A stretch of DNA of 64,000 nt from Candidatus Melainabacteria bacterium SSGW_16 (lineage in GTDB: Bacteria > Cyanobacteriota > Vampirovibrionia > 2-02-FULL-35-15): contig DUDS01000032.1 of assembly GCA_004769085.1 (NCBI GenBank), positions 62,001 to 126,000 of the forward strand, in the 5' to 3' direction. Position 1 is the stretch's first letter. Each line of letters begins with the position of its first letter. Below are positions 2,924 to 61,958 of this stretch, one piece after another. Below the pieces are notes generated by a model that saw only the letters and a program-made list of their open reading frames with translations, searched no databases and was not told the origin of the DNA. The position numbers and the translations under genes are program-made.

Positions 2924-2995
2924 AAAGCTAAAAGTAAGCTTTATCTTGCTAACAATTAGATACAAAACATAAATATTTCAGTCATTATAATCTGT

Positions 2996-3697: not shown

Positions 3698-3847
3698 ATA
3701 GATTACCTTTTTAAGATTAAAAACTCCTTGTTATTTCCCAATAAAAAATAATTTGCTCTTTTACCTGCAAAGTTTGAACTAATAACACCCTTACCGATTG
3801 CATGCCCGAAGTAAAAGATAAAATAAAAACTTTTTTTGAAAAAGACA

Positions 3848-4552: not shown

Positions 4553-4691
4553 TTTTCTTAGAGACTATTACTTAAACAAAAAAGTTCTCCTCAAAAGACT
4601 TATGCTCACTAAAGCAAAATACATAGTCATTATAATATCTATTATTACTATTAAGGTACATTTTTAATTCTTTCAAGTCTATAATCTAACT

Positions 4692-47149: not shown

Positions 47150-47151
47150 AG

Positions 47152-47703
47152 TTAATTTCCTTTGTGAATATGCTTAATAATAAACTTTGCTCTTTCTGAG
47201 ATAGGAGCAACTGGTACTGTTATTACTTTATAACCAAGCTCTGTGTAACAATTATATAAGGCTTCATGAATTTCTTTAGCTTGTTTACTGGTTTCTGTCC
47301 TTGCATAATCTTTTTCATATCTTGGAAGTAAATCCAAAATAAATATTCCTCTATAGCGTATCCTTCTGCTCATTTCCAGTACACCATTAAGATCACCGCC
47401 ACAATCCTTAAGATAAACTATACTGTCAGGTAACCCTCTTTCCCAAAAAATTAACTCTTCTTTAGAAGCTTTTGTTTCTATTTCAATCTTAATTCTTAAA
47501 ATATCTTCTTCAAATTGCCGTTCATTACCTCTAATCTGAGCAATGGTTTTACCCTTGCTAATTTCATTATCAATTAAAATACGAGCAACTTCAGGTCGTA
47601 TAGAATAACCTAAAAACGCAAGGTGATCTATTGTCTTTGATTTACCAGTTGAAGGACCACCAGTTATGACATACCAGTTTGTTTTTTGAATAACCTCACC
47701 CAT
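47152..47703 (-). CDS. P-loop ATPase/kinase-like protein (AAA_28 type)
   Basis: A 183-residue P-loop protein. The Walker A motif GGPSTGKS is at 15-22, followed by FLGYSIRPEVARILID and later FWERGLPDSIVYLKDCGG, as in AAA_28/NadR-like phosphotransferases that act on small molecules or regulate partners. It has no DNA-binding domain. It lies between the universal stress protein and beta-CASP genes with gaps of 21 and 2 nt, so it is part of the operon. Its substrate is unknown. Confidence 0.75.
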   Translation of the reverse strand: MGEVIQKTNWYVITGGPSTGKSKTIDHLAFLGYSIRPEVARILIDNEISKGKTIAQIRGNERQFEEDILRIKIEIETKASKEELIFWERGLPDSIVYLKDCGGDLNGVLEMSRRIRYRGIFILDLLPRYEKDYARTETSKQAKEIHEALYNCYTELGYKVITVPVAPISERAKFIIKHIHKGN

Positions 47704-47724
47704 AAGCTAATTCACTTAAAGATA

Positions 47725-48594
47725 TTACCTTACAAGCAACACAGGACGCTTTGAAGCTGACAATATAGTCCTTGCAGTACTACCAAATACTAGTTTCATT
47801 AGATTATTCTTGTTCCTGCCGCACATGCCTATTGCTACCAAACCAGCATGGATTTGATGTGCATATTCAAGAATTCCATTCCACGGTTCAAAGGTACCTG
47901 TAGTACTGTAAAAAGTGGATTTAATTCCATAAGGTTTTAAAAACTCTCTAACTTCAACAAATATACTTTCTGATTCAGATTCATTATCAGCAACATTAAT
48001 AACATGCAGTTTACCATCTAATTTTGAAAGAAATGGAGCAAGGAACATTAAAGCCCTTTGTGATGACTCACTTCCGTCATATGCCAGCAAAGTATCAAAA
48101 TGATGCTTAGTTTCTTGAGATACTACTATAACTGGTCTTGCTGTGCTTTTCATAAGTGAGGTTACAGTTCGTCCTGGTTCAACTTCATCTTCCTTATGTT
48201 GTTTCCCTCTTTTTCCTATTACTACAAGATCTACTGTCTTTGACATTTCGCCTATTAATTCTCCTACATCACCCCTTGTAATTGAAAAATATCCTTCAAT
48301 CTTACTCTTAGATAAAGCTTCATTAAACTTTGATTGAAGCTTAAGCTCTTCTTTAACCATTTCAGATTCAATTTCTTTTTGTTCTTTTGTAAACGTTGCT
48401 GATGAAAGTTTTGTAGCAACACTTACAATACTTCTTTTTGCTTCTGGTGGTCGCCAATTAAGTATTCTCTTAATATCCTCAACATACAGACATTTTAACT
48501 TTGCTTGAAATTTTGAAGCTAAATCAATTGCATAATCAAGTGCATAACCAGCATTTTTAGAATCATCTATAGCAACAAGTATACTTTTTGCCAT
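47725..48594 (-). CDS. Tandem universal stress protein (UspA x2)
   Basis: A 289-residue protein of two UspA domains. SILVAIDDSKNAGYALDYA begins the first and LLAYDGSESSQRALMFL the second. The ATP-type glycine motif at the end is GMCG, 11 residues, then GSTAR (the usual spacing is 9), and the first domain ends VVIGKRGKQ. I set the start at 48594, where GGAGG precedes MAKSILVAIDD, since the longer frame would overlap the upstream gene. Tandem USPs often bind ATP and aid survival in hypoxia, NO or stasis. It sits in the operon led by the CBS gene. Confidence 0.9.
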   Translation of the reverse strand: MAKSILVAIDDSKNAGYALDYAIDLASKFQAKLKCLYVEDIKRILNWRPPEAKRSIVSVATKLSSATFTKEQKEIESEMVKEELKLQSKFNEALSKSKIEGYFSITRGDVGELIGEMSKTVDLVVIGKRGKQHKEDEVEPGRTVTSLMKSTARPVIVVSQETKHHFDTLLAYDGSESSQRALMFLAPFLSKLDGKLHVINVADNESESESIFVEVREFLKPYGIKSTFYSTTGTFEPWNGILEYAHQIHAGLVAIGMCGRNKNNLMKLVFGSTARTILSASKRPVLLVR

Positions 48595-48614
48595 TGGTTT
48601 ATCCTCCAAAATAT

Positions 48615-49475
48615 TTACCTTGTAAGAAGAACTGGACAAGTGGCTTGCTTCAATACCTCTTTAGTAGTACTTCCAAAAATTAATTCCATAAGTCTGTTTT
48701 CTCCAAATGCACCTATTACAACTAACCCAGGATCAAAAATCTTTATCTGCTTAGCAATTCCTATCCAGGGCATAGTAGCTCCAAAATCTACCACATATGT
48801 AGCATTTAATTCATAAGGTTCAAGAAACTCTTTTGCTTCATCCAAAGGCTTCTGTGCAGAATCAATATCATTAGCGACACTTATAACTATTACTTCAAAG
48901 TTTAAAAGTTTTGCAAATGAAGCTCCTACACTTAAAGCACGTTGTGAATTTTGGCTACCATCATAGGCAATTAATATTTTATTATTTATCTTTGTATCTT
49001 CAGGTACTACAAGTACAGGTCGTGTAGTAGATCTAAGTAAGTCTTCTGTAACTGGTCCAGGCTCTTTTGAAGCTTCAGGATATGTTTTTCCTCTCCTGCC
49101 AACTACTATAAGATCTACTGTTCTTGTCATTTGTTCAACTGTTTCGTGAACCTTTCCTCTCTTGGTGAAAAATTCACAGTTTACAGCAAACTTTTTACAT
49201 TCTTCTTCAAAACTCTTTTGTATTCTGTTAGCTTCAGCAATAAACTGTTTTTCAACCTCTACTTCTTCCAATGTCGGACGTGAATGAAGGGTAGCTGAAG
49301 TAGCCCCAATTGCTGCACCCATCAATTCAACAGGCTGCCATTCAAGCAAGCGCATAATATCTTCTACATAAAGTCCTTTTACTTTTGCACCACAAATCCT
49401 AGCTAAACCAACTCCGATATTTAGTGCTGATTTGCTTGATTTGGATTCATCCATTGCTATTAATATACTTTTCAT
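48615..49475 (-). CDS. Tandem universal stress protein (UspA x2)
   Basis: A 286-residue tandem UspA protein, paralog of the next gene. It starts SILIAMDESKSSKSALNIG; the second domain starts ILIAYDGSQNSQRALSVG. The C-terminal nucleotide motif GAFG, nine residues, GSTTKEV matches the canonical G-x2-G-x9-G-S/T of ATP-binding USPs. Both paralogs keep a shared insert near GKVHETVEQM. It follows the CBS gene by 43 nt and precedes the second USP by 20 nt. Likely expressed under respiratory or NO stress, judging by the divergent NO reductase and shared promoter box. Confidence 0.92.
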   Translation of the reverse strand: MKSILIAMDESKSSKSALNIGVGLARICGAKVKGLYVEDIMRLLEWQPVELMGAAIGATSATLHSRPTLEEVEVEKQFIAEANRIQKSFEEECKKFAVNCEFFTKRGKVHETVEQMTRTVDLIVVGRRGKTYPEASKEPGPVTEDLLRSTTRPVLVVPEDTKINNKILIAYDGSQNSQRALSVGASFAKLLNFEVIVISVANDIDSAQKPLDEAKEFLEPYELNATYVVDFGATMPWIGIAKQIKIFDPGLVVIGAFGENRLMELIFGSTTKEVLKQATCPVLLTR

Positions 49476-49518
49476 AAGTTTATCCTTTCAATGCTTTGTT
49501 TCCTTAGCCATTTAAATT

Positions 49519-49968
49519 CTATTTACACCTAACATCATCACTTAACTCACGAACCATATCAGAAATGCACTCATCATCAAATTCAACAACTGGTGCAAGA
49601 TCACTCATGGAAATAATACCGACTAATTTCCCGTCTTTTTCCACAGGTAATCTTCTATATCCATAATCACCCATTATGTCCAGTGCTTCTTTACAAGTAG
49701 TTTCTGGAAATATTGTCATAGGCCATCTTGTCATAATTTCATCGGCTGTTGTTGTTCCCAGATCTCTTTTACGTGCAACAACACGAGTAACTATTTGCCT
49801 ATCAGTTATCATTCCAAGTAATTTTTTCTGTTCACCAACTATAAGCACAGTACCTACATTTTCTTCATCCATTAATTTGGAGGCTTCATAAATACTTGTT
49901 TTTGGAGTTATAGTTACAAGATTTATTTGCATTACTTGCTGAACTTTTGTTTCTGTCGCTATTGTCAT
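49519..49968 (-). CDS. CBS-pair protein
   Basis: A 149-residue protein with two CBS domains (VTITPKTSIYEASKLMDEEN and MTIFPETTCKEALDIMGDYG). Stand-alone CBS pairs bind adenosyl ligands such as AMP, ATP or NADH and can sense energy state. The first gene of the operon with the two USPs, the P-loop protein and the beta-CASP protein. AGGAGA precedes the ATG. Its promoter region is shared with the divergent NO reductase gene and holds a 32-bp box. Confidence 0.88.
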   Translation of the reverse strand: MTIATETKVQQVMQINLVTITPKTSIYEASKLMDEENVGTVLIVGEQKKLLGMITDRQIVTRVVARKRDLGTTTADEIMTRWPMTIFPETTCKEALDIMGDYGYRRLPVEKDGKLVGIISMSDLAPVVEFDDECISDMVRELSDDVRCK

Positions 49969-50073
49969 TATTTTATCTCCTACTTTAATTTAATCTACCT
50001 ATAGAATGCCCTGAATTACTAATAGATTCATCAACCAAGAGGATAAACTTAAGGGTAATTTTGGTTGAGAAAA

Positions 50074-50105
50074 ATCATCCTTTTGGCTATTCTTGAGGTC
50101 GATTT
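50074..50105 (+). promoter_or_regulatory. 32-bp stress box, qNOR/USP-operon copy
   Basis: Begins ATCATCCTTTTGGCTATTC and ends GGTCGATTT. It lies 83 nt before the NO reductase ATG and 105 nt before the CBS start of the divergent operon. The left half is conserved; the right half is weaker (GTCGAT in place of AAGGAT). Confidence 0.65.
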
Positions 50106-50188
50106 CATTTATTAAAGCAACAAGTATCTTTAAAAGAAGATAAATTGGGCTAAACTGAAAAACAAACAAGGCAAGAAAGGATTATTTA

Positions 50189-52414
50189 ATGAAGGCTTCC
50201 GAATCGTTATCACCATGGTGGAAAAACACATTAATTCTTACCATGATAGTTGGGTTTACTGTTCTTATCTGGGTATCCACTAAAGCATATAAAGATGCAC
50301 CTCCAATTCCACAACAGGTTATAAATGCAGCAGGTGAAACACTCTTTACTAAAGATGATATTCAAAAAGGTCAACAAGTATTTTTAAAATATGGACTCAT
50401 GGAGAATGGAACAATCTGGGGACATGGTGCTTATCTTGGTCCTGATTTCTCGGCAGAATATTTACATACTCTTGCAGCTTATATAGGAGATCCAAATGAA
50501 GCCAGGAAACTATTAAAGCAAAATCGTTATAATCCAAAAAGTAATACTTTAATTTTTACACAAGAAGAAGAGTCTTCATACAAAGATCAAATCACAAAAT
50601 GGAGAACTTATTTTTCTAATCCAAAGATTAATTATGGACTACCTGCAAAGTATATTAATAATCCAGAAGAACTTAAACAGCTTACTTCATTTTTTGCATG
50701 GTGTAGTTGGGCAAGTGTGGTTAATCGTCCAGGAAAGAACTATACTTACACCAACAATTTTCCATTTGAACCTGCTGTAGGAAATATGCCAAGTGCTGAT
50801 GCACTGTTATGGAGTGCACTTAGTTTAGTAGCATTACTTGGTGGCATAGGATTTATTTTATTCCTTTTTGGAAAGTTTGATTACTTGGGCTGGAAGAATG
50901 GAAAAGAATATTTACAACAACAAATGTTTCCTGGTGCTGCAACTAAAAGCCAGGAAGGGACAATAAAATACTTTGCAATTGTTGCAGTTTTATTTTTACT
51001 GCAATCTTTAGTCGGTGGTGCTACAGCACATTACCGTGCAGATCCTACTGGTTTCTTTGGAATTGATTTGTCATCAATATTACCCAGCAACATAGTAAGA
51101 ACCTGGCATCTTCAGCTTGCTATCTTCTGGATAGCTACTGCTTATATTGCAGGTGGATTATTTCTTGCACCTGCTGTAGGTGGTAAAGAACCTAAAGGAC
51201 AAGCATTTGGTGTTAATTTTTTATTTCTTGCTCTACTTATTGTTGTACTAGGAAGTCTTAGTGGAGAAATTTTAGGAATTAATAACGTGCTTGGGAAACT
51301 GTGGTTTTGGTTTGGGCATCAGGGCTGGGAATATCTTGATCTTGGTAGAGCATGGCAGATTTTGCTTGCAGTTGGACTTGTGATTTGGATAATTTTACTA
51401 TTTAGAGGAATTCTGCCTGCAATTAAAAATCCGGAAAGCAAAGAAATATCGTCTCTTTTTCTTTACTCAGCAGTTGCAATTCCTCTGTTTTACCTGCCTG
51501 CATTCTTTTTTAATAGCACAAGCCACTTGACAGTAGTTGATACCTGGAGATTTTGGATTATACATTTATGGGTTGAAGGCTTCTTTGAACTTTTTGTTAC
51601 TGTCATGGTAGCAATTATTTTTTACAAACTTGGTATTGTTTCTCATAAAACAGCTACAAGAGTTGTTTATCTGGATGCAATCCTTTATCTTGGCAGTGGC
51701 ATTATTGGCACAGGACATCATTGGTATTGGACAGGACAATCAAATATAACAATGGCATTAGGTGCAGTATTTTCAGCACTTGAAGTTGTACCACTTACAT
51801 TACTTACTTTAGATGCCTGGGATTTTATAAAACTTGAAAAAGGTGAGGCAAATATATCAGGGAAAAACATTTTCACCATTCACAAATGGACATTTTATTT
51901 CCTTATGGCAGTTGGTTTTTGGAACTTCCTTGGAGCAGGAGTATTTGGATTTTTAATTAATCTCCCAATAGTAAGCTACTTTGAAGTAGGTACACTACTT
52001 ACTCCTAACCATGGACATGCAGCTATGATGGGAGTATTTGGAATGCTTGCTATTGCTCTTATGGTTTTTGCTTTAAGACAAGTCTTAAATGATGAGAATT
52101 GGAAGAAGATAGAAAAATATATTTGCATTTCATTTTGGGGATTAAATATTGGGCTTATACTTATGGTTGTAACAAACCTATTTCCTGGTGGAATAGCACA
52201 ATTAATAGATGTTTTAAATAATGGTTACTCACATGCAAGAAGTCCAGAGTTTTTAAATCAATCTTTTATGCGAACTATAGAGTGGATTAGATTACCAGCA
52301 GATTTTATATTTATTGTATTTGGATGTATACCTCTTGTAATAGCATCATCTCTAACTTATGTGTATATAAAAGGGTCCTCTTTGGTAAAGCAACCACAAG
52401 AAAAGTTGTTTTAA
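50189..52414 (+). CDS. norB: Quinol-dependent nitric oxide reductase (qNOR)
   Basis: A 741-residue single-subunit NO reductase that reduces NO to N2O with quinol electrons at the inner membrane. The N-terminal extension typical of qNOR is present (TKDDIQKGQQVFLKYGLMEN, HGAYLGPDFSAEYL), then 12 or so helices with heme and non-heme iron His residues in TAHYRADPT, GHQGWEYLDLGRAWQ, HLWVEGFFELF, GTGHHWYWTG and TPNHGHAAMMGVFG. AAAGG lies 8 nt before the ATG. With no denitrification genes nearby its likely task is NO detoxification. It diverges from the USP operon and has the 32-bp box upstream. Confidence 0.95.
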   Translation: MKASESLSPWWKNTLILTMIVGFTVLIWVSTKAYKDAPPIPQQVINAAGETLFTKDDIQKGQQVFLKYGLMENGTIWGHGAYLGPDFSAEYLHTLAAYIGDPNEARKLLKQNRYNPKSNTLIFTQEEESSYKDQITKWRTYFSNPKINYGLPAKYINNPEELKQLTSFFAWCSWASVVNRPGKNYTYTNNFPFEPAVGNMPSADALLWSALSLVALLGGIGFILFLFGKFDYLGWKNGKEYLQQQMFPGAATKSQEGTIKYFAIVAVLFLLQSLVGGATAHYRADPTGFFGIDLSSILPSNIVRTWHLQLAIFWIATAYIAGGLFLAPAVGGKEPKGQAFGVNFLFLALLIVVLGSLSGEILGINNVLGKLWFWFGHQGWEYLDLGRAWQILLAVGLVIWIILLFRGILPAIKNPESKEISSLFLYSAVAIPLFYLPAFFFNSTSHLTVVDTWRFWIIHLWVEGFFELFVTVMVAIIFYKLGIVSHKTATRVVYLDAILYLGSGIIGTGHHWYWTGQSNITMALGAVFSALEVVPLTLLTLDAWDFIKLEKGEANISGKNIFTIHKWTFYFLMAVGFWNFLGAGVFGFLINLPIVSYFEVGTLLTPNHGHAAMMGVFGMLAIALMVFALRQVLNDENWKKIEKYICISFWGLNIGLILMVVTNLFPGGIAQLIDVLNNGYSHARSPEFLNQSFMRTIEWIRLPADFIFIVFGCIPLVIASSLTYVYIKGSSLVKQPQEKLF

Positions 52415-52466
52415 AAGATTAGTCTTTAAGCTGGTACAAAGTCAAGCAACTTTCGTCTTGTAATCT

Positions 52467-53102
52467 ATGCAAGAACAAACACATCATAAAGAGCCACCGT
52501 TTGGACATCATCTGGGTATTTGGTATCCACTTGTATGGCGGCTCTTAGCAACAAATAGATTTTGGTCACCATCTATGTGGCTGCCAAAAGATTCAGCTCT
52601 TGCAATTGATTTATATATTGGTGCATGGTGGGTGTTTGAAATTGTATGCATAGTTTTCTGTGACCTTTTATTTAAACAAAATATCTTTTATATTTGGTTA
52701 TTTACAGCTCTTGCGATTTTTAGATTGACTGACATTATGTTTGTTTTGTTATCTATTCTTATAAAAGGAAATTATAGAAGACAGGGTGACTGGCCTTCTG
52801 TAAGCAGAGTTATTCTTCTGGTAATTTTAAATGCACTAGAAATAATGATTTTGTTTGCTGTGCTTTATTATTCACTAACTTTTTTAAGTCCGGAAGCTGG
52901 TGGTACCTTGCCAAAATTAGAAAATTTCTTTAATAGTTTGTATTTTAGCTTTGTTACAGGTACATCTCTTGGATATGGTATTCCACATCCTGTTGGTAAG
53001 CTCGCAAGATTTCTTTCAATAGTTGAAGCCTCATCTATTATTCTTGTTGTTATTGCAGTAATTGGATACATTACTAATGAAAAAAGAAAATCACAGCATT
53101 AA
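52467..53102 (+). CDS. Ion-channel-like membrane protein (Ion_trans_2 pore)
   Basis: A 211-residue protein with about four helices. The C-terminal part reads FNSLYFSFVTGTSLGYGIPHP followed by a helix with FLSIVEASSIILVVIAVIG (landmarks FSFVTGTSLGYG and the last helix). This is the pore helix, filter and inner helix of two-helix K+ channels; the filter TSLGYG differs from TVGYG. The N-terminal half has two more helices and WHPL/WYPLVWRLL-type aromatic residues. It follows qNOR by 52 nt and is probably co-transcribed. Ion choice and gating are unknown. Confidence 0.7.
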   Translation: MQEQTHHKEPPFGHHLGIWYPLVWRLLATNRFWSPSMWLPKDSALAIDLYIGAWWVFEIVCIVFCDLLFKQNIFYIWLFTALAIFRLTDIMFVLLSILIKGNYRRQGDWPSVSRVILLVILNALEIMILFAVLYYSLTFLSPEAGGTLPKLENFFNSLYFSFVTGTSLGYGIPHPVGKLARFLSIVEASSIILVVIAVIGYITNEKRKSQH

Positions 53103-53112
53103 GTCTGTAAAC

Positions 53113-54135
53113 TTATCTCACTAATTTTAGCTCCTGGGCTTCTTCAACTCCCTTGATTTGCCCTATCTCTTCTAATGTTCTTAGCTGTTTTTCTGACTGG
53201 GCTTCTTGTTCAACACCCCAATCCTCTGGGTTGCCTGCTGAAGATGAAACTCGCCCTTTGTTAGCTGTAACTGCAATAGCTCCTATTTGTGCAAGCAAAG
53301 CAGGATTTAATGCTTGTGTATTTGAGGTTACAACTGTATTTAGCGGTAACTTATTAGCTAAAGGCAGTACTCTTACAGGTTTAAATACTGCTACCTTTAT
53401 TTGACTAGTAAGTGTTGTTAATGGTGTTTTTACCATTGTAAAAGTTCTTGACAAAAGTAAAAGTGTCTTCCTGGTTAAATTCGTTAATGCTTTTGAAGCT
53501 AAAACTGCACTTTGTAGAAAACCTTTAATTAACTTATTTTCATTTATGGTTATTTTCTTTTGTGATTCGTTGATTGATCTCAATGCTTGAGGTAATGAGA
53601 TTCTTTTTTTACTCAACAACTCTGGTTTTGCTGTAACTGTAGCTAGTAATTCCGGATTCTTTCCTAGCATAGCTAATAGTGATGGCTTTGTCTTGAGTAA
53701 AGTTAACAAGTCTAGATTTTCTGTAAGCAAGAAAATCAATTTTGGATTTGCTGCCACCAGTCTCAATAAAACTGGTCGCTTTGCTAATAAAGCTAAAAAA
53801 TCGGGACTAGTTATTGCCAGAAATATTAATGATGGATTTGTTTCAAGTATGGTTAATAATGCAGGATTGCTAATTAACACATTGAGTAGTGCTGGGAACT
53901 GTGAAACCATTGCTAACAGTCTTGGATTTCCTATTAGGATGTTTAGCGATGCAGGGTTAGTGGTGATTGATTCTACTGTTCGAAATATTCCAGGCAGTTG
54001 CCCTTTGGGAAATAATGATTTCTGAATGGGTGCTGATCCTTTGTGTAACCTAAAAGCATGTTCTAAAAGTAACTCGCCCCCAGGTGGTAATACAGGGGAA
54101 CTCTCTATCCTTCTTGTGCTCTGAACTTCACTCAT
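53113..54135 (-). CDS. Protein with about twelve tandem decapeptide repeats
   Basis: A 340-residue protein whose residues 60 to about 179 are an exact 10-residue repeat with the pattern [NKRS]-P-x-L-L-x-x-L-x-x; examples are NPALLTILET, RPVLLRLVAA and KPSLLAMLGK. The repeat has no gaps, and Pro at position 2 with Leu at 4, 5 and 8 suggests a short-helix solenoid. No family was recognised. The rest is basic (residues 180-280) and then Gln/Glu-rich at the end. No signal peptide is seen. GGGAG precedes the ATG, and a half copy of the 32-bp box lies 78 nt upstream. Confidence 0.75.
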   Translation of the reverse strand: MSEVQSTRRIESSPVLPPGGELLLEHAFRLHKGSAPIQKSLFPKGQLPGIFRTVESITTNPASLNILIGNPRLLAMVSQFPALLNVLISNPALLTILETNPSLIFLAITSPDFLALLAKRPVLLRLVAANPKLIFLLTENLDLLTLLKTKPSLLAMLGKNPELLATVTAKPELLSKKRISLPQALRSINESQKKITINENKLIKGFLQSAVLASKALTNLTRKTLLLLSRTFTMVKTPLTTLTSQIKVAVFKPVRVLPLANKLPLNTVVTSNTQALNPALLAQIGAIAVTANKGRVSSSAGNPEDWGVEQEAQSEKQLRTLEEIGQIKGVEEAQELKLVR

Positions 54136-54213
54136 TTTTAACTCCCAAAGTTATATCTACTCATATAATGTTATAAAAAGACTATTAATTTATCCTTCGT
54201 AAGGTTGTTTAAA

Positions 54214-54232
54214 ATCATCCTTTTGGCTAGCT
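54214..54232 (+). promoter_or_regulatory. Half copy of the 32-bp stress box
   Basis: ATCATCCTTTTGGCTAGCT matches the left half of the box; the right half is absent. It lies 78 nt upstream of the decapeptide-repeat gene and touches the stop region of the collagen-like gene. Confidence 0.45.
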
Positions 54233-54233
54233 A

Positions 54234-55535
54234 TTAATCGTCTTCCCCATTACATACGTAGTGGGTACTAGCTATTTCATTAGAATCTAGTACATTGTTT
54301 TGATTTGAATCTAAGCCCATTTGAACTTTTATTCCGCCTTCATCACAATTAGATCCATCTGGCTCATTTGTAACTTTTATTAAGCTAGTTAGACCACTTG
54401 CACCAGTAGCTCCTGTTAAACCTTGTGAGCCTTCACCTTGCATACCTTGAGAGCCTTGGGTACCAATTGGAATTCCAAGTGTTAAATTACAGAGTACCGG
54501 ATCAAAGAATGAAGTTGCTTGACTTCCTGGAGAAAGATTATTAGCAAAAACCATTAATGTATCAGCGGCATTATTACAAATACTCATTCCATCAACACCT
54601 GTAGGACCTTGTGGTCCAATCTCCCCATCTTTGCCAGCAACACCATCTTTACCGTCTTTTCCATCCTTCCCATCCTGTCCAATTTTAGGACCTATATATA
54701 AACCATTAACTAAAGTAGCTAAATTACCTATAAGCAAGTTTGTTATTGTTACATTTCTAAATCCTCTAGATGCTCCTTCAGTTACATATACAGAAACTTT
54801 TAAATCTCCATTATCTGAAGCTTGAATATCTTTTATTTCAATATCGTTTCCTAAATTAATTTGAGTAAATGAATCCAGACTTCTACCTTCAACAGTTAAA
54901 ATACCCTCAACACCAATGTCTAAAATTGATGGCGATATACTATCTATTCTAAATTCTGGCTTTGTTAATATCGTTGTTATTGCATATTGCCCATCGGTAG
55001 TAGAAGCTTTTAAAGTATATGCACCTGGAAGAACCCCTTTTACTGCAATTTTATAAACTTTGTAATCTTTTTCTTTTACAAGATAAGATTTGTTTTCTAT
55101 TCTTTTTAAGTTATAAGTTAACTTAGTTCTAAATATTCTTTCTTCCAAGATTTCTTCACGTTTGCTTGGTTTATTTCTAGGTCTGTGGGGAGTTATTATT
55201 TTCAACCCTTTTTTTAAAAGTTTGTCACTGTCTATTCCAAGCCCAACACCTTCCGCACCTATAACTTCCACTTTAACTATATTTGTTTCTGGACTTAAAA
55301 TTAAATCTATTTCTGCTTTTTCATCAAGTTCAATATCATACCTGTCATATCTAAAAGCAGGATACAGATTTTCTTCACTAGCTATCCGCATAGAAGACTT
55401 CATTTTTTTTATATCTGAGTTTACATGCAAATATGGAAAAGAAGTCCACAGAGCAATTATTAATATAAATAAACTAATAAAAATGTTTATTATTAATAAC
55501 TTTAATATGAGTATCTTTTTAGGTATATTTTCCAT
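54234..55535 (-). CDS. Membrane-anchored collagen-like protein
   Basis: A 433-residue protein. One N-terminal membrane helix (about 12-35) is followed by a beta-rich part with an IPT/Ig-like segment (SPSILDIGVEGILTVEGRSL). Gly-x-y collagen repeats come next in two runs, GQDGKDGKDGKDG onward and GTQGSQGMQGEG onward, separated by a Cys-containing stretch. The end, with GGIKVQMGLDSNQNNVLD and THYVCNGEDD, matches the DUF7151 pattern seen at the end of secreted bacterial proteins. GAGAGGAAAG precedes the ATG. It probably extends into the periplasm or surface. It diverges from the histidine kinase gene, with a 32-bp box between. Confidence 0.75.
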   Translation of the reverse strand: MENIPKKILILKLLIINIFISLFILIIALWTSFPYLHVNSDIKKMKSSMRIASEENLYPAFRYDRYDIELDEKAEIDLILSPETNIVKVEVIGAEGVGLGIDSDKLLKKGLKIITPHRPRNKPSKREEILEERIFRTKLTYNLKRIENKSYLVKEKDYKVYKIAVKGVLPGAYTLKASTTDGQYAITTILTKPEFRIDSISPSILDIGVEGILTVEGRSLDSFTQINLGNDIEIKDIQASDNGDLKVSVYVTEGASRGFRNVTITNLLIGNLATLVNGLYIGPKIGQDGKDGKDGKDGVAGKDGEIGPQGPTGVDGMSICNNAADTLMVFANNLSPGSQATSFFDPVLCNLTLGIPIGTQGSQGMQGEGSQGLTGATGASGLTSLIKVTNEPDGSNCDEGGIKVQMGLDSNQNNVLDSNEIASTHYVCNGEDD

Positions 55536-55639
55536 TATTGTCTTTCCTCTCTACTTAATACATACCTTTAAATAAATAGAATTAACTTATTCCTAAGGCT
55601 GAAATATTTAGTAATAGCCATTAACTATGCATTAAATAA

Positions 55640-55671
55640 ACCATCCTTCAGATTAGCCTTAAGAAGGATTT
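55640..55671 (+). promoter_or_regulatory. 32-bp stress box, histidine-kinase copy
   Basis: ACCATCCTTCAGATTAGCC and ending AGAAGGATTT, with a perfect ATCCTT-N15-AAGGAT dyad. It lies 72 nt before the kinase ATG and 104 nt before the collagen-like gene start. Confidence 0.65.
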
Positions 55672-55743
55672 AGTTACAAAGCTAGGGGATAGCATTATAT
55701 TTGTCGATGAAAAAATACAGAGAAGTAAGGTATCATAATTTGC

Positions 55744-56871
55744 ATGCTTGACTTAGAAAACATTAAAACCACACAAGCTGACTTTCTTAAACTGATTGAG
55801 ATAATCCCTGATGCAATTGTAATTGTAGATAACGAAGGAAAGATTAGATATATAAACTCCCAAACCACAAATACATTTGGATATAGACCTGATGAGTTAA
55901 TTGGGCAAACTATTGAAATATTACTACCTCATCGTTTTAAAAATAAACATGTAGACCATAGAATTAATTATTCTAAGCATCCAGTAAGAAGACCAATGGG
56001 TAGTGGAATTGATCTTTATGGAAGAAAAAAGGATGGTACTGAGTTTTCAGCAGATATAACAATATCACCAATTGAAACAGAAAATGGCACATTGGTAATT
56101 AGTGTAGTCCGTGATATTAGTGAACGTAAAAAAGCTGAAGAAGAAGCAAAAAGACGAGCTAAACAATTAGAAGATTTAGTTAGTACGATGACGCATGATT
56201 TAAGAACACCTTTAGCTGCTGCAGAAACCAGCTATAAACACATGCAAGAAGGTTATTTTGACAAGCTTACTGAAAATCAAAACCAAGTTGTAAATCTGCT
56301 AATGCAAAGCAATGAACATACTTTAAGGTTAGTAAATAATTTACTTTCTGTTTTTAAATATGAGTCACAATCATACAAGCTTTTTTTAAAACAAGTTGAA
56401 GTCTCTGAACTTTTAGATAGAGCACATGATAAAGTTAAGCCGTTTCTTAAAGATAAAGGAATTAATTTAAAAATTATAAAGACAAACTTTCAGTTTATTT
56501 GTGATCCTTTTGAAATAGAAAGAGTAATAGTAAACCTGCTAACAAATTCAATAAAATACACTCCAAGTGGTGGGCAAATAGAGCTTCAGGCAGTTAAAGA
56601 TGCAGATGGAAACGTAATAATTAGTGTTCAGGATACAGGGATTGGAATAGCAAAAAAAGATCTGCCAAATCTTTTTGAAAGGTTTTGGCAATCCACAAGG
56701 TCTAATTCAAGCTCAAATAGTACTGGTCTTGGATTATACTTAAGTAGACAAATTATAGAAGCTCATGGAGGGAGAATTTGGGCAGAAAGCACCTTTGACA
56801 AGGGAACAAAAATAAGTTTGACGGTACCTGGAATTAAAATATTAAGTCTTAGGGATGATGTTTTAGATTAA
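55744..56871 (+). CDS. PAS-domain sensor histidine kinase
   Basis: A 375-residue soluble kinase. The PAS domain (about 15-125) has IPDAIVIVDNEGKIRYIN and ends RDISERKKAEEEA. The dimerisation helix has TMTHDLRTP with the phosphoryl His at 151. The ATPase has NLLTNSIKYTP, DTGIGIAKKDL and STGLGLYLSRQIIEAHGG. It has no membrane helix, so it senses a cytoplasmic signal, possibly through the PAS pocket. It precedes a NarL-type regulator by 23 nt, making a two-component pair, and its promoter has a perfect 32-bp box, consistent with autoregulation. Confidence 0.93.
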   Translation: MLDLENIKTTQADFLKLIEIIPDAIVIVDNEGKIRYINSQTTNTFGYRPDELIGQTIEILLPHRFKNKHVDHRINYSKHPVRRPMGSGIDLYGRKKDGTEFSADITISPIETENGTLVISVVRDISERKKAEEEAKRRAKQLEDLVSTMTHDLRTPLAAAETSYKHMQEGYFDKLTENQNQVVNLLMQSNEHTLRLVNNLLSVFKYESQSYKLFLKQVEVSELLDRAHDKVKPFLKDKGINLKIIKTNFQFICDPFEIERVIVNLLTNSIKYTPSGGQIELQAVKDADGNVIISVQDTGIGIAKKDLPNLFERFWQSTRSNSSSNSTGLGLYLSRQIIEAHGGRIWAESTFDKGTKISLTVPGIKILSLRDDVLD

Positions 56872-56894
56872 AAATCTATGTAAAGTTTAAGTAA

Positions 56895-57626
56895 ATGACA
56901 GAAGATAGTCCAAAAAAAATTAAATTGATGCTTGTAGAAGACCATGTTCTAGCAAGACTTGGTCTTAAAGTTTCTCTTGAAAAATACCCAAACCTTGAAA
57001 TTGTTGCTGAAACAGCAAATGGAAAAGAAGCAATTGAACTTGCTAATAATAAAAAACCTGATTTAATTATCATGGACATAGGCTTAATTCAACTAGATGG
57101 GATTGAGGCTACAAAAAAGATTAAAGAAGCTAACCCAAACATAAAAGTAATAATGCTTACAAGTCATGAAGCAGAGCATGAAATAATGGCAAGTTTAGCA
57201 AGTGGTGCTGATGGATATTGTCTTAAAGACACTTCTCCGGAGCAGCTTTATACAGCAGTCCAATCAGTTAATGAAGGTAATGCATGGCTTTCAAGTCAAG
57301 TGGCTGAAAAAGTATTAAGAAATTTTTATGGGAAAGAGGTGAGTCAAATAAAGCAGTCTGATTTCACTAATCCTCTCCCAGTAAGTGATGAGAAAAAACA
57401 AACTAAATCTACAGGTTCAATCCCAATAGTTCCTTTATCAGATCGTGAAATTGGAGTTCTAGAATTAATAGTCGAGGGTAAGAGCAACCAAGAGATTGGT
57501 GCAAAACTTTTTCTTAGCATAGCCACTGTAAAGTCACATGTTAGAAATATTTTAAACAAATTAAGTGTTGATGACAGAACGCAAGCTGCTGTTAAAGCAA
57601 TGAGAGAAGGCATTATAGCTTTTTAA
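56895..57626 (+). CDS. NarL/LuxR-type response regulator
   Basis: A 243-residue regulator. The receiver domain has LMLVEDHVLARLGL, the phospho-Asp at D61 in IIMDIGL, and the switch Thr/Lys in MLTSHEAE and CLKDTSPE. A longer than usual linker (about 130-178) leads to a LuxR/NarL HTH: LSDREIGVLELIVEGKSNQE and FLSIATVKSHVRNILNKLSV. It follows the PAS kinase by 23 nt. It is the best candidate to bind the 32-bp dyad box near the island's promoters, as DosR does in its own regulon; this is inference. Its end overlaps a convergent CBS gene by 4 nt. Confidence 0.92.
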   Translation: MTEDSPKKIKLMLVEDHVLARLGLKVSLEKYPNLEIVAETANGKEAIELANNKKPDLIIMDIGLIQLDGIEATKKIKEANPNIKVIMLTSHEAEHEIMASLASGADGYCLKDTSPEQLYTAVQSVNEGNAWLSSQVAEKVLRNFYGKEVSQIKQSDFTNPLPVSDEKKQTKSTGSIPIVPLSDREIGVLELIVEGKSNQEIGAKLFLSIATVKSHVRNILNKLSVDDRTQAAVKAMREGIIAF

Positions 57627-58123
57627 CTGCAACACTTTGAATGAACTGAAGATTTACCTAACTCTTTTGCAAAATCAATTAATATGCAATTTGGATCTGG
57701 AGATTTTTTATTGGGGCAAAAATTACTTACACAGGCAATATCTGCCAGTGAAATTATTCCTACCAGCTTATCTCTTTCTACAACAGGTAACCGTCTCACC
57801 CCAAGCTCTGACATGAGCTTTACTGCATCATCACATGAAGCACTTGGAACAATCCTTATTGGATTTGGTGTCATGTATTCACAGACTTTTGCTTTCTTTG
57901 AATCTTTTCCAATTGCAATACACCTTGTTACTATATCTCTGTCATTTATTATGCCAACTAAAATGCCATCTAATGTTCCATTTCTTTTAACGACTGGTAA
58001 GCTGCCAATGTTTTTGCTTGCCATAAAAACTGAAGCATCAAATACGGTAGAGTTAACATCAATTGAGTAAACATTTCTCTGCATGAGTTCTTTCACCAAC
58101 ATTATTTTGGGGTCTTTTTCCAT
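57623..58123 (-). CDS. CBS-pair protein
   Basis: A 166-residue protein with two CBS domains (SIDVNSTVFDASVFMASKNI and NPIRIVPSASCDDAVKLMSE), closely related to the one at 49519. The C-terminal tail has extra cysteines (FCPNKKSPDPNC, SKCCS) not present in the paralog, which could bind metal or sense redox. I start it at 58123, where AGGAGG is 10 nt upstream, rather than at 58177. It converges on the response regulator and diverges from Hsp20, sharing the promoter region that contains a box. Confidence 0.85.
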   Translation of the reverse strand: MEKDPKIMLVKELMQRNVYSIDVNSTVFDASVFMASKNIGSLPVVKRNGTLDGILVGIINDRDIVTRCIAIGKDSKKAKVCEYMTPNPIRIVPSASCDDAVKLMSELGVRRLPVVERDKLVGIISLADIACVSNFCPNKKSPDPNCILIDFAKELGKSSVHSKCCS

Positions 58124-58278
58124 TTCTGTATTACCTCCTAAGTTAAAAGTACCCTTGGGTAATGTCAAAATCCCCAACCTTAGGAGTGATTATGGATCAG
58201 TCTTAGGATTGATTACATTCTATTCCTTCAAATCCAAAACATTTCATCCTCCTTTGGTCTAAGAGTTTAATGTTTAAG

Positions 58279-58310
58279 ATCATCCTTTTGGTTGTTCGGT
58301 AGAAGGATTT
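58279..58310 (+). promoter_or_regulatory. 32-bp stress box, Hsp20/CBS copy
   Basis: ATCATCCTTTTGGTTGTTC and ending AGAAGGATTT, a perfect ATCCTT-N15-AAGGAT dyad. It lies 61 nt before the Hsp20 ATG and 155 nt before the CBS gene. A partial second match, ATCCTCCTTTGGTCTAAG, lies about 35 nt further left. Confidence 0.65.
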
Positions 58311-58371
58311 CATTTTTATATAAAATAGTTATATTTGTGTGTGTAGGTTAAAGAAAAGGAAGGGTATTGAT

Positions 58372-58836
58372 ATGGCACTTACAAAATGGAGACCGTTTAA
58401 TGGTTTAACTGGATTTTTTGATGAAGATTTTCCACTTATGGCGTGGAAACCTTTTGGTGAAAAATTCTTTGAAAAAGATTTCCCGGTTAGTAGATTACCA
58501 AAATTCGGATGGGATTTAGCAGTTGATGTCTACGAAAAAAACGGAAATATAATAGCAGAGATGAATCTGCCTGGTATTGATCCAGAAAAAATTGATATAT
58601 CGGTAGAAGATGACTATCTGACAGTATCTGGTTCAAGGGAAGAAAAGAAAGAAACTAAGGAAGAAGATTACTACAGCAAGGAAATTAGACGTGGTTCCTT
58701 TGAAAGAACAGTTAAATTATCACATGCTGTAAAAAAAGATAAAGCAGATGCCAGTTACAAAGATGGTGTCTTAAAAATAACAATTCCTAAAGATGAAAAG
58801 AAAGAAGGAACAGTCAAGGTAAAAGTAACAAAGTAA
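58372..58836 (+). CDS. Hsp20/alpha-crystallin small heat shock protein
   Basis: A 154-residue small chaperone. After an N-terminal arm with several FDEDFP-type phenylalanines, the alpha-crystallin domain runs from WDLAVDVYEKNGNIIAEMNL to the end of DGVLKITIPKDE, with ISVEDDYLTVSGSREE and GSFERTVKLSHAV. GVLKITIP carries the family's I-x-I-like end. It prevents aggregation of unfolded proteins. I chose the ATG at 58372, preceded by GGAAGG, over an upstream frame start at 58339. It has a perfect box upstream and a terminator downstream. Confidence 0.95.
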   Translation: MALTKWRPFNGLTGFFDEDFPLMAWKPFGEKFFEKDFPVSRLPKFGWDLAVDVYEKNGNIIAEMNLPGIDPEKIDISVEDDYLTVSGSREEKKETKEEDYYSKEIRRGSFERTVKLSHAVKKDKADASYKDGVLKITIPKDEKKEGTVKVKVTK

Positions 58837-58859
58837 CCTTTGACTGGCTTAAAAAGAAA

Positions 58860-58895
58860 AGGCTTGTCTTATGAGGCAAGCCTGATTCTTTTATA
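58860..58895 (+). terminator. Intrinsic terminator after Hsp20
   Basis: AGGCTTG and CAAGCCT form a 7-bp stem around a 10-nt loop, followed by GATTCTTTT. A second imperfect hairpin at 58811-58846 (CAGTCAAGGT with ACCTTTGACTG) spans the Hsp20 stop codon. Confidence 0.65.
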
Positions 58896-58928
58896 AGAGG
58901 TACAAAACATGACGAAGGATGGTTAGAT

Positions 58929-59258
58929 ATGTCAGGAATAGAGTGGGGATTCTACAGAGAACTTAAAAACAAGCTTGCAGCAAATCAACGAAAGACAGTA
59001 CCATTAGTTAAAAAGTGGAATGTAGCAGTTGCTGTTTATGAAGAAGGAAATGATTCCATTCCAACAAAATTAGGCTTTCGCGATATTCAAGCAGAAAGAA
59101 TAAATGTTTGTTTTAAAGATAAATATTTAATAATTTCTGAATTAAATGAAATGCAAGCTATTTTTGAAGATAACAGACAAAGCTCATTTGAAAAAATAAT
59201 TGGATTTCCAAGAACAATTAAAAAGATAGCTTTCTCTGCTACTCAAAATGTAGTTTAA
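58929..59258 (+). CDS. Degenerate Hsp20 paralog
   Basis: A 109-residue protein that aligns to the Hsp20 just upstream: KWNVAVAVYEEGND with WDLAVDVYEKNGN, then INVCFKDKYLIISE with IDISVEDDYLTVSG, then SSFEKIIGFPRTIKK with GSFERTVKLSHAVKK. The end carrying DGVLKITIP, needed for the last strand, is missing, and the loop between is shortened. It may be decaying or may have become a partner of the intact copy. GAAGGAT precedes the ATG. Confidence 0.6.
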   Translation: MSGIEWGFYRELKNKLAANQRKTVPLVKKWNVAVAVYEEGNDSIPTKLGFRDIQAERINVCFKDKYLIISELNEMQAIFEDNRQSSFEKIIGFPRTIKKIAFSATQNVV

Positions 59259-59290
59259 ATTGTAGTGGACAAAAATGAAAGGAGTTATAT

Positions 59291-59704
59291 ATGCAAGTAA
59301 AAGATTTAATGACAAGGGATGTTTTTACACTTAGAGAAGACAGTAAGATATTTAGTGCTTCTGAGGCAATGACTTTTAGGAATATTAGACATATTCCTGT
59401 AGTTGATAAAGAAGATAAACTCGTTGGGATTGTCACGTACAGAGATTTGCTTAGTTCTCTTGCAAGGGAATTAATGCCTCTGCAGGTAAAAGATATTATG
59501 ACAAGAGCAACTATTACTGTAACTCCTGATGTAACTGTAAATATGGCAACTGAAATAATACTTGGTAATAAATTTGGATGCCTTCCTGTCATAGATAAAA
59601 GCAACAAACTTGTGGGGATTATTACTGAAACAGATCTTCTAAGAGAGTTGTTTAAAATGACAAGGACAACAGGTTCATTCAGTAAAGAGAAAATTAGGAG
59701 CTAG
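59291..59704 (+). CDS. CBS-pair protein
   Basis: A 137-residue protein with two CBS domains: MTRDVFTLREDSKIFSASEA with IRHIPVVDKEDKLVGIVTYR, and MTRATITVTPDVTVNMATEI with GCLPVIDKSNKLVGIITETD. The third CBS protein of the island. AAAGGAG lies just before the ATG and it follows the degenerate Hsp20 by 32 nt, so the two are probably co-transcribed. It overlaps the convergent receiver gene by 4 nt at the stop codons. The likely role is binding an adenine nucleotide and reporting energy state. Confidence 0.88.
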   Translation: MQVKDLMTRDVFTLREDSKIFSASEAMTFRNIRHIPVVDKEDKLVGIVTYRDLLSSLARELMPLQVKDIMTRATITVTPDVTVNMATEIILGNKFGCLPVIDKSNKLVGIITETDLLRELFKMTRTTGSFSKEKIRS

Positions 59705-60069
59705 TAAGTTTTCCTACTTTCTATAGCTCTTATAATTTCATTCTCAGAAAAAGGCTTTTCAAGGAAATGAAAATGTCCCCCAGCTTTCATGAATTCTCCT
59801 AGTTTTATTCTTAGATTTTCATCAAGCTTGTCATATGTAAGTATTAAAAATGTTGAAGGGCTTAACACATTAATTTTTTTCATTAAATTAACTCCATTTG
59901 TATCAGGTAAAATCATGTCTACAAATGCAATGTCATATTTTTTCAGTTTAATTCTTATAATGCTTTCCTTCCCATTTGTGGCAATGTCTGCTGTGTGTCC
60001 ATGACTGCTTAAAAGTTTGTGTAAACCTTCTCTAATTTCTTGAATATCGTCAATGATTAATATGTTCAT
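59701..60069 (-). CDS. Stand-alone receiver domain (CheY-like)
   Basis: A 122-residue receiver with no output domain: acidic pair D7/D8 (ILIIDD), phospho-acceptor D51 (AFVDMILPD), switch Thr in LILTYDK and Lys in FLEKPFSENE. Single receivers act in phosphorelays or bind partner proteins. It lies upstream of nothing on its strand but next to MFS and CBS genes of the stress island. The kinase partner could be the PAS kinase at 55744 or one elsewhere. Confidence 0.88.
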   Translation of the reverse strand: MNILIIDDIQEIREGLHKLLSSHGHTADIATNGKESIIRIKLKKYDIAFVDMILPDTNGVNLMKKINVLSPSTFLILTYDKLDENLRIKLGEFMKAGGHFHFLEKPFSENEIIRAIESRKTY

Positions 60070-60097
60070 AAGGTTATTTAAGCAGGTTTTGCTTTAT

Positions 60098-61255
60098 TTA
60101 ATTCTTTCTTGTACTTAACACAAATATGGGTATTGAAACAGCCTGTACTATTACTGAAAATAAAACTAAGTAAGCAATAGAAAAATCATATAGAAATCCC
60201 ATTAAAGCACTTCCTAAAAACCAAAATAATCCACATATTGTATTAAATATTCCAAAAGCTAAACCTCGTCTATTAATTTGAACCATGTTACTAATGGCAG
60301 CTCTCATAATTGATTCCTGTGTACCAATTCCAATTCCCCATAAAATCATACCTATTAGAGCTAAATGAAAATTACCCATAAAAACACACGGAGCAAATAA
60401 TAAAGAGAATAAAGTAACAATCACAAAAGTAAAAATGCCTATCTTATCAAACAAACGACCAAATACAAGTGCACTAATAGCATCAACTCCCATAGCAAGA
60501 GAATAAAAAATCGGAATCCAATTCTCGGGTACTATTGAGACCTTTTTAAAATGATAAGCAATAAGTGCAAAATCAGCATATCCACTAGCAACTAAAGCAA
60601 CCGCTATAATATAAAGCCAAAATGGTTTGGAAAATCCTTTCCTTTGGAGGTTAATTTTTTCTACTTCAAAATCACGAGGATTTGAATAAGTTAACCTTGC
60701 TACAAAAAGTACACTTAATGCTATGAATGCTGGCAGTAAAAGCAGAACAAAACAATTTTGATAACTTCCTTTCAAGTAAAGAATAAAAGCCACTATTAAT
60801 GGACCAAGAACTGAACCAACTTGATCCAATGCTTCATGTAATCCAAAACCAAACCCTTGCCCGATTTTACTATTTGCATGGGAAAGCATTAAATCACGTG
60901 CAGGGGTACGAATAGCTTTTCCTGCTCGTTCAAGAATTATAAAAACAGCAGCAATTTCCCAGCGTCCTGCAAGCGCTAAAAGTGGTACAGCAATTAAGTT
61001 TATTGAGTAACCAACTAATGTTATAGTCCAATACTTTTTTGTTTTGTCTATTAAATAACCAGATATAAGCCTTAGGCAGTATCCTATTAATTCTCCAAAT
61101 CCTGCTGTAACCCCTACAACAGTTCCACTTGCACCAAGGATTGCAAGGTATTGACCATTAATACTCCATGCACCTTCATAGGTTATATCAGCAAAAAGAC
61201 TAACTATTCCAAGCAGAATAATAAATTTTAATGCATTACTTTTTGAAGTATCCAT
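60098..61255 (-). CDS. MFS permease
   Basis: A 385-residue transporter of the major facilitator superfamily with about twelve helices. SLFADITYEGAWSINGQYLA near the start, RPRNG-like loop replaced by ISGYLIDKTKKYW, and RAGKAIRTPARDLMLSHA with GQGFGFGLHEALDQVGSVLGP (landmark GFGLHEALDQVGSVLG) match MFS proteins annotated as drug/sugar-type transporters in metagenomes. The substrate is not visible. It is transcribed away from the YtxH gene; the shared gap holds a 32-bp box 96 nt before its start. It precedes the lone receiver gene by 28 nt on the same strand. Confidence 0.85.
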   Translation of the reverse strand: MDTSKSNALKFIILLGIVSLFADITYEGAWSINGQYLAILGASGTVVGVTAGFGELIGYCLRLISGYLIDKTKKYWTITLVGYSINLIAVPLLALAGRWEIAAVFIILERAGKAIRTPARDLMLSHANSKIGQGFGFGLHEALDQVGSVLGPLIVAFILYLKGSYQNCFVLLLLPAFIALSVLFVARLTYSNPRDFEVEKINLQRKGFSKPFWLYIIAVALVASGYADFALIAYHFKKVSIVPENWIPIFYSLAMGVDAISALVFGRLFDKIGIFTFVIVTLFSLLFAPCVFMGNFHLALIGMILWGIGIGTQESIMRAAISNMVQINRRGLAFGIFNTICGLFWFLGSALMGFLYDFSIAYLVLFSVIVQAVSIPIFVLSTRKN

Positions 61256-61351
61256 TTTACTAAATTTAACCTTAAAAAGAAAAAAAAAGAAAGTAGGGAA
61301 ATAATTAGATTACAACAATATATAAAAAAGTTGTATTTGTTGAGGTTAAAA

Positions 61352-61383
61352 ATCATCCTTTTGATTAGCCTTAAGAGGGATTT
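61352..61383 (+). promoter_or_regulatory. 32-bp stress box, MFS/YtxH copy
   Basis: ATCATCCTTTTGATTAGCC and ending AGAGGGATTT, the dyad ATCCTT-N15-AGGGAT. It lies in the 388-nt gap between the divergent MFS and YtxH genes, 96 nt from the MFS start and 260 nt from the YtxH start. No gene was seen in the rest of that gap. Confidence 0.6.
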
Positions 61384-61643
61384 TGTTTTCTTATCTAAGG
61401 GGTATTCTTATTAATGTAAGTGAGGATAATTTAAAGTGCAAGGGCAACTTTCTCGAAATGAAGTGAAACTCAAAGTAAAGAAAAGCTACAAAACTTAAAT
61501 AAAATATTACTTACAGCAGAGTTTGAAAATTATTTAATCGTAGCTGGATAATAGATCTGGTTTGGTAAAACGAATGTTCTGGTTATTCACCCAAGGTTAT
61601 TTGGTTTCCAAACTCCATTTTTAAAGCAAAGAAGGTGAGAATT

Positions 61644-61958
61644 ATGTTAAAGCAAGTAGGAAATGTTATTAAGTTAGCAACTGTTTTTACCTCTGGTTTA
61701 TTTTTAGGTGTGATGGCAGGATTTCTTACCGCTCCTAAATCAGGGAAAGAACTAAGGAAAGACATAGCTGATGAAACCTTAAAACTAAAAGAACTAACAA
61801 AAGATAAGCTTGAAGAATTTGAAGATGTTGGAGTAAATAAAGTTAGAAAAGCAGGACATGCTATAAGAGATGCTGCAGATAAAATGTGTCTAAGCATAGA
61901 TGAGTTAGGTAGTAAAAGTAAGAAATGTGAAGCTAGTGAAAATCTTCCTGTTTGTTAA
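61644..61958 (+). CDS. YtxH-domain protein
   Basis: A 104-residue protein with the YtxH pattern: a hydrophobic segment LGVMAGFLTAPKSGKELRKD near the N-terminus followed by a long charged helix. YtxH proteins are membrane-anchored and often induced by stress; their exact role is unknown. The tail has several cysteines (MCLSID, KCEASENLPVC). The start is the ATG at 61644, preceded by AAGGTG, rather than the GTG at 61635. Confidence 0.75.
   Translation: MLKQVGNVIKLATVFTSGLFLGVMAGFLTAPKSGKELRKDIADETLKLKELTKDKLEEFEDVGVNKVRKAGHAIRDAADKMCLSIDELGSKSKKCEASENLPVC

Follow-up and report, generated by a model that had tools for sequence, protein, structure and literature searches.

The window analyzed here is a stretch of 64,000 nucleotides (nt) from Candidatus Melainabacteria bacterium SSGW_16 (genome G000; contig DUDS01000032.1, positions 62,001 to 126,000). 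It carries several copies of a 32-nt box with dyad symmetry, the putative operator of a two-component system encoded among them; G, C and L numbers below denote genomes, contigs and fetched loci. In window coordinates, the kinase-regulator pair and the neighboring or boxed genes are:

28362-29483, minus strand: fatty-acid desaturase, boxed in G000 only
45740-49968, minus strand: predicted target operon of a CBS gene (49519-49968), two Usp genes, an AAA gene and a beta-CASP RNase-like gene
50189-52414, plus strand: qNOR-type nitric oxide reductase
53113-54135, minus strand: gene of 340 amino acids (aa) that has no Pfam match and whose counterparts follow a box or half box in five genomes
55744-56871, plus strand: sensor kinase (PAS, HisKA and HATPase), whose PAS domain has its nearest solved structures in a multi-sensor kinase and FixL
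56895-57626, plus strand: response regulator (REC and GerE, LuxR/NarL-type), the predicted box-binding protein
57623-58177, minus strand: second CBS-domain gene, divergent from the Hsp20 gene, with no box of its own recognized
58339-58836, plus strand: Hsp20 small heat-shock protein, boxed in G000, G003 and G007
61635-61958, plus strand: YtxH-like protein, whose counterpart in G008 is also boxed

The boxes and their neighboring -10-like hexamers are:

29611-29642, minus strand: box of the desaturase gene; TATAAT at 29586-29591
50028-50059, minus strand: second, degenerate box, of the divergent CBS-Usp-Usp2-AAA-beta-CASP operon; CATTCT at 50003-50008
50074-50105, plus strand: box of the qNOR gene; TATCTT at 50125-50130
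54214-54229, minus strand: half box of the 340-aa gene; leftward TAAATT at 54187-54192, 19 nt past its GATTT
55640-55671, plus strand: box of the kinase-regulator pair (predicted autoregulation); TAGCAT at 55690-55695, 18 nt after the box
58279-58310, plus strand: box of the Hsp20 gene; TATATT at 58330-58335
61352-61383, plus strand: box of the YtxH-like gene; TATTCT at 61403-61408, followed by a predicted leader of ∼230 nt

The 32-nt box is a real recurrent element. The sequence-only reading had listed five full copies and the half copy at 54214, and their coordinates all proved correct when the sequence was read again. A search of the entire genome (2,253,012 bases, or 2.25 Mb, in 46 contigs) with ATCATCCTTTTGRYTANNCNNNAGNNGGATTT, a pattern itself derived from these boxes, returned only the window's five copies at up to 3 mismatches, and the backward control returned none. 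The ends ATCATCC and GGATTT, proposed as uniform, hold for most copies, but the copy at 55640 starts with ACCATCC and the copy at 50074 ends with CGATTT. The reduced motif ATCCTT-N15-AAGGAT, on which the copies had been centered, did not hold up as a signal: although two copies are perfect, the window contains 57 matches (up to 3 mismatches), and 57.4 are expected. A consensus rebuilt from the conserved positions, which is partly circular, gave 8 matches in the window (the five boxes and three antiparallel readings of the same dyads) compared with 0.31 expected, and none of 100 shuffles reached 8. A first model, built from the five box sequences only and scanned across the window, picked up the half copy and antiparallel readings besides the five boxes, and nothing else convincing there.

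The proposed placement in promoters is borne out: 31 of 33 sites lie outside open reading frames (ORFs) of at least 100 aa, although 88.5% of the examined DNA is coding. These 33 sites are the 32 with up to 2 mismatches in the fetched stretches plus the box at 55640; none was dropped, and the site at L022:19474, which lies inside an ORF and is probably a chance match, was kept. The distances from box to start codon are likewise as proposed (83 nt for qNOR, 72 nt for the kinase and 61 nt for Hsp20), the last of these only with the ATG at 58372; the Hsp20 start in the ORF list is the GTG at 58339.

To describe the architecture of the box, we compared conservation on its two sides. Among the 14 boxes of 32-nt form, C3, C7, G12, C19, G24 and G28 are invariant, and conservation is mirrored about position 15.5 (correlation 0.79, 63% complementary). 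Seven boxes have a 31-nt form with its symmetry center at 15.0 (correlation 0.73, 52% complementary). The axis at box position 17 implied by the sequence-only reading must be given up (correlation 0.02, 45% complementary); it lies 1.5 bp from the true axis at 15.5. The mirror symmetry about 15.5 and 15.0 indicates an inverted repeat of AAATCnTnCTTnnG whose two copies are separated by 6 or 5 bp.

The box stands at a fixed distance from a -10-like hexamer. Counted from the box start, TAnnnT occurs at offset 50 in 9 and at offset 51 in 11 of the 33 sites (together 20/33), compared with a mean of 1.05 and a maximum of 4 at 60 other offsets, and no comparable peak (at most 4/33) is found on the divergent side. 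The 32-nt form pairs with offset 51 (11 boxes, versus 1 at offset 50, the box at 55640) and the 31-nt form with offset 50 (5 versus 0), with a Fisher p of 0.001 for the association between sites many of which are orthologous. Among 21 boxes with a GAT end, 16 have the hexamer exactly 19 nt away and one has it at 18 nt, while four have no hexamer there; three further sites have a hexamer at offset 50 but no recognizable GAT end. Because the length form tracks the hexamer offset, the near half mostly holds its distance to the hexamer and the far half moves. The composite of both halves, the 19-nt gap and the hexamer, built from 16 training sites, never reached a score of 6 in 2 × 349 kb of islands shuffled to first order. 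The box is directional, and its geometry is like that of an activator-dependent promoter without a -35 element. The geometry expected of a class II sigma-70 promoter, with the operator over the -35 place and a fixed distance to the -10, is seen at 20 of the 33 sites and, by hand count, at six of seven CBS-Usp promoters.

The fixed 19-nt gap at many sites could also be explained by an alternative sigma factor, for which the right half would be the -35 and TATTCT the -10 element, with no activator involved. We consider this very improbable, since symmetric halves with mirror-matched conservation, at distances of 24, 25, 45 or 46 bp, are features of a dimer operator, and the left half is better conserved than the right although it lies farther from the hexamer. 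The presence of several near-identical copies in one region might, on the other hand, point to remnants of a mobile repeat or to an untranslated RNA element. We consider that explanation extremely unlikely: strong similarity among sites is restricted to the box and the hexamer, counterpart promoters keep the box, and the window has no Rfam match at gathering scores. Moreover, with the hexamer downstream of it, the box itself would be left out of the transcript. The leader of the YtxH-like gene (61415-61643), which spans ∼230 nt from the expected transcript start to the gene, is itself without an Rfam match.

Several boxes are accompanied by a second box on the upstream strand. In the window this is the box at 50028-50059, which the earlier reading had overlooked and whose left half is degenerate. 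In the aligned CBS-Usp promoters of seven genomes, the right half ends in GATGA or a variant, and in six of them CATTCT, CATTAT or GATTAT follows 19 nt past the right half (hand count); in G005, where one box is common to the CBS and kinase genes, AATTAT follows at 20 nt. In G001, G004 and G009 the half-sites of this promoter are separated by 45 or 46 bp, measured from C3 to G28, rather than 25, a widening of 20-21 bp:

L016:15066-15117: widened CBS-Usp promoter
L059:6843-6895: widened CBS-Usp promoter
L022:11913-11965: widened CBS-Usp promoter

The additional stretch in G001 is itself a nearly perfect palindrome, GGGGCTTACCATGGTAAGTCCC. When half-site pairs in the islands were counted over distances of 15-90 bp, with antiparallel readings of one dyad counted twice, 35 fell at 24-25 bp and 6 at 45-46 bp; five of these six are readings of the three widened promoters, and one 24-25 bp pair, at 27000 in the window, looks like chance. 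A shift of 20-21 bp corresponds to about two helical turns, which, for only three promoters, suggests that both halves are recognized from the same side of the helix.

The distribution of the box among genomes points to the regulator encoded at 56895. With the full pattern and up to 3 mismatches, the box is found in 9 of the 11 genomes of the family, including the window's (a scan at order level gave the same 11 genomes). Across the class it is found in 11 of 289 genomes, namely the nine of the family and 2 of 278 others, both at the 3-mismatch limit. A regulator orthologue, 66-84% identical to that of the window, is present in all 11 family genomes, and 13 of 15 full-box matches lie within 30 kb of its gene. 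A half-site search with ATCATCCTTTTGRTTA (1 mismatch) gave 32 matches in 10 of the 11 genomes, versus 13 in the backward control. Of these, 24 fall within 30 kb of a regulator-orthologue gene (G000, 7/9; G001, 3/3; G002, 1/1; G003, 2/2; G005, 1/1; G006, 0/1; G007, 2/2; G008, 8/9; G009, 0/2; G010, 0/2), and G004 has no match at the 1-mismatch cut-off. At an assumed chance of 5.5%, and ignoring relatedness, the binomial values are 4e-15 for the full box and 4e-24 for the half-site. Overall, box matches lie within 30 kb of the kinase/LuxR-type regulator pair in 7 of the 11 genomes.

A genome-wide model search, which scored 150 of the ∼2,800-4,700 first-look candidates per genome, gave at least 21 sites at E < 1e-8. 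Twenty of them are the training sites, nearly all of which have a visible -10, so that their scores are high by construction. Of the 21 sites listed, all but one, on G010:C161, are no more than 30 kb from a regulator gene. Sites outside the training set include G008:C14:48958, G009:C20:22639, G000:C20:196738 and lower-scoring ones.

The family contains 14 copies of the regulator, with two each in G000, G009 and G010, and the recognition-helix stretch is near-identical in all 14. A related kinase lies directly beside 12 of them: eight are of the PAS class found in the window, and four have a different N-terminal part (G000 C20, G008, G009 C5 and G010 C233). A second island in the window's genome (G000:C20:191201-196794, L058) holds a paralogous regulator (69%), a kinase of the other sensor class, a CBS gene and boxes of its own. 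With box matches clustered by its gene and a conserved helix, the regulator at 56895 is, as had been proposed, the likely binder of the box.

The box may instead be bound by another regulator, with the response regulator merely close by, and the box matches of G006, G009 and G010 on contigs apart from the regulator gene would fit this. We judge it distinctly unlikely, as the pair holds the sole recognized DNA-binding regulator common to the islands (some of whose ORFs are unannotated), and the island on G000 contig C20 has a paralogous pair with its own boxes.

The genes behind the box help to define the candidate regulon. As expected from the sequence-only reading, the box is conserved at counterpart promoters, namely those of the CBS-Usp operon and the Hsp20, YtxH and 340-aa genes; in the 340-aa gene family the sites (G000, G001, G003, G004 and G009) are mostly half boxes. 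In relatives the box is also kept before a cytochrome operon, which is absent from the corresponding place in the window. It lies behind the box in G002, G003, G007, G009 and G010, and in G006 a weak box stands before its last two genes:

L018:12283-13876: cytochrome operon
L020:15141-16616: cytochrome operon
L017:9594-11107: cytochrome operon
L022:8502-9992: cytochrome operon
L023:3850-5353: cytochrome operon
L184:1614-2523: cytochrome operon

The products of this operon are small and have a single CXXCH apiece, so that they are predicted to be monohaem cytochromes c; one also has a TIG domain. Weaker candidates are a CBS/receiver pair in G004 (weak box, E 0.0063) and a peroxiredoxin-glutaredoxin gene in G008 (weak half-site). 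A hemerythrin gene in G009 has a near-perfect dyad box (L183:1504-1535, E 2.3e-5), which was outside the training set and lies on a contig without regulator genes. The beta-CASP protein of the CBS-Usp operon (45740-47149) reaches 418 bits with the type VII CRISPR Cas14 model (cut-off 800) and 280 bits with the aCPSF1 model (cut-off 580).

Placement and the conserved counterparts, with Usp, Hsp20 and CBS proteins among them, favor the proposal of a stress regulon with a common regulatory box. A core of nitric oxide (NO) detoxification and lipid remodelling, which had also been proposed, fares less well. The qNOR gene is matched (E up to 1e-30) in 2 of the 11 family genomes and is boxed only in the window's; in G001, G003 and G007 the box at the equivalent place precedes an ion-channel or Hsp20 gene. 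The other match (G005:C79:23893-25611, L220) has two TGA stops within the aligned stretch, and no box was seen in that fetched stretch, where the match begins at residue 155 and the promoter may fall outside. For the desaturase, none of 13 fetched loci (from 15 other matches) is boxed. Since qNOR and the desaturase are boxed only in G000, the name "NO regulon" is too narrow. A regulon that responds mainly to NO, as first suggested, seems unlikely to us: qNOR in the window and the hemerythrin gene in G009 are boxed, but qNOR occurs in only two genomes and the more widely kept targets are general stress and redox genes.

Taken together, the results are best explained by a local two-component regulon, probably autoregulated and with class II-like promoters. 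We think it likely that the box is the site of the regulator at 56895, which would be phosphorylated by the PAS kinase at 55744 and would then bind the box and switch on stress and redox genes jointly. Regulator units would sit at the two half-sites on one side of the helix, where the unit on the near half would cover the -35 place and recruit RNA polymerase with the housekeeping sigma factor, as in class II activation. The kinase-regulator genes may be activated through their own box as well: the kinase gene itself is boxed in G000, and in G002, G003 and G007 a box is followed on the same strand by the cytochrome genes and then the pair. The second kinase class, with its other sensor part, would likely feed the paralogous regulators reading the same box. 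The target functions and the FixL-like PAS domain suggest oxygen, NO or redox state as the signal.

Several observations weigh against this interpretation. The backward control of the half-site search gave 13 matches, so the 8 matches away from the regulator are within the chance level. G009 and G010 have their full-box matches on contigs that carry no regulator gene, and the top model match of G006 is both weak (E 0.0015) and on a contig other than the regulator's. Near regulator relatives outside the family (at most 51% identity), no convincing box was found in 70 loci, taken from the best 80 of 141, so that the wider comparison cannot check binding. (One locus of that scan, L106, was family genome G002 again, and a 15.6-bit match in L157 was taken as chance.) Of the 14 regulator copies, that of the window is the most divergent across the helix region, differing at 5 of 34 positions. 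TAnnnT is missing from both offsets, 50 and 51, at 13 of the 33 sites, including half-sites at the 340-aa gene, and among the 20 sites that have it, 3 lack a recognizable GAT end. The kinase gene of G001, G004 and G005 is preceded by a box or half box, but no hexamer stands at the fixed distance on the side towards the kinase. The p-values overstate independence, because the 33 sites were chosen inside the fetched islands and include many orthologous ones. Finally, NarL and DosR have short dyads as operators, unlike the box with its half-sites 15-16 bp apart.

A more far-reaching possibility, which we put forward tentatively and would not yet bet on, is that these non-photosynthetic relatives of cyanobacteria have an oxygen/NO dormancy regulon of their own, independent of DosR. 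In it, paralogous LuxR-type regulators, fed by a FixL-like PAS kinase and by another kinase class, would read one helical-phase-locked operator, its far half movable by two turns and its near half fixed to the -10, in islands round the regulator gene. For this Melainabacteria lineage the analysis supplies a candidate regulator together with its putative operator and a promoter geometry open to testing, and it names previously unlinked genes (the CBS-Usp-RNase operon, three small c-type cytochromes and the 340-aa unknown) as likely participants in a single stress response. No published description of the box or regulon was found in the literature searched, which covered few subscription papers.

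It is instructive to compare the system with known ones. Among solved structures, the regulator matches VraR best (143 bits, compared with 108 for NarL and 95 for DevR) and has a TVKTHV recognition helix similar to that of VraR; the targets and host are unlike those of VraR/LiaR in Firmicutes. FixL/FixJ, an oxygen-sensing pair, likewise combines a PAS and HisKA kinase with a REC-GerE regulator, and the window's PAS domain matches that of FixL at 52.6 bits. However, a better match (68.4 bits) is the PAS domain of a multi-sensor kinase, the FixL family model NF041777 scores the window kinase at 140.6 bits, far under its cut-off of 850, and no nif or fix genes were seen among the box targets. A His aligned with the haem-ligand residue of FixL is kept in all eight PAS-class kinases; the multi-sensor kinase PAS has the same His.

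The closest parallel is with the DosR-type dormancy regulons that the sequence-only reading had called to mind. DevR/DosR of Mycobacterium and OsdR of Streptomyces coelicolor are described as having universal stress and heat-shock targets and a site before the regulator's own genes (PMC5069765, PMC10034137), and their sites as clustering round the regulator (PMC5069765). Here, as there, a LuxR/NarL-type REC-GerE regulator adjoins its kinase, and the targets, judged by box position, include Usp, heat-shock and redox genes with sites gathered round the regulator. The operators differ: OsdR/DevR sites are presented there as a 16-nt, G+C-rich palindrome, AGGGCCGATCGGCCCT in Streptomyces (PMC5069765). 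The operator in the window spans ∼34 bp, is A+T-rich, consists of AAATCnTnCTTnnG and its inverse in two spacing forms, and bears no resemblance to AGGGCCGATCGGCCCT. The kinases differ as well, since DosS and DosT are GAF kinases and the window kinase, with PAS, HisKA and HATPase, has no Pfam GAF match. By analogy, the system would thus work like the DosR/OsdR dormancy regulons with another kinase type and another operator, which suggests that this regulon design arose more than once, with unrelated operators.

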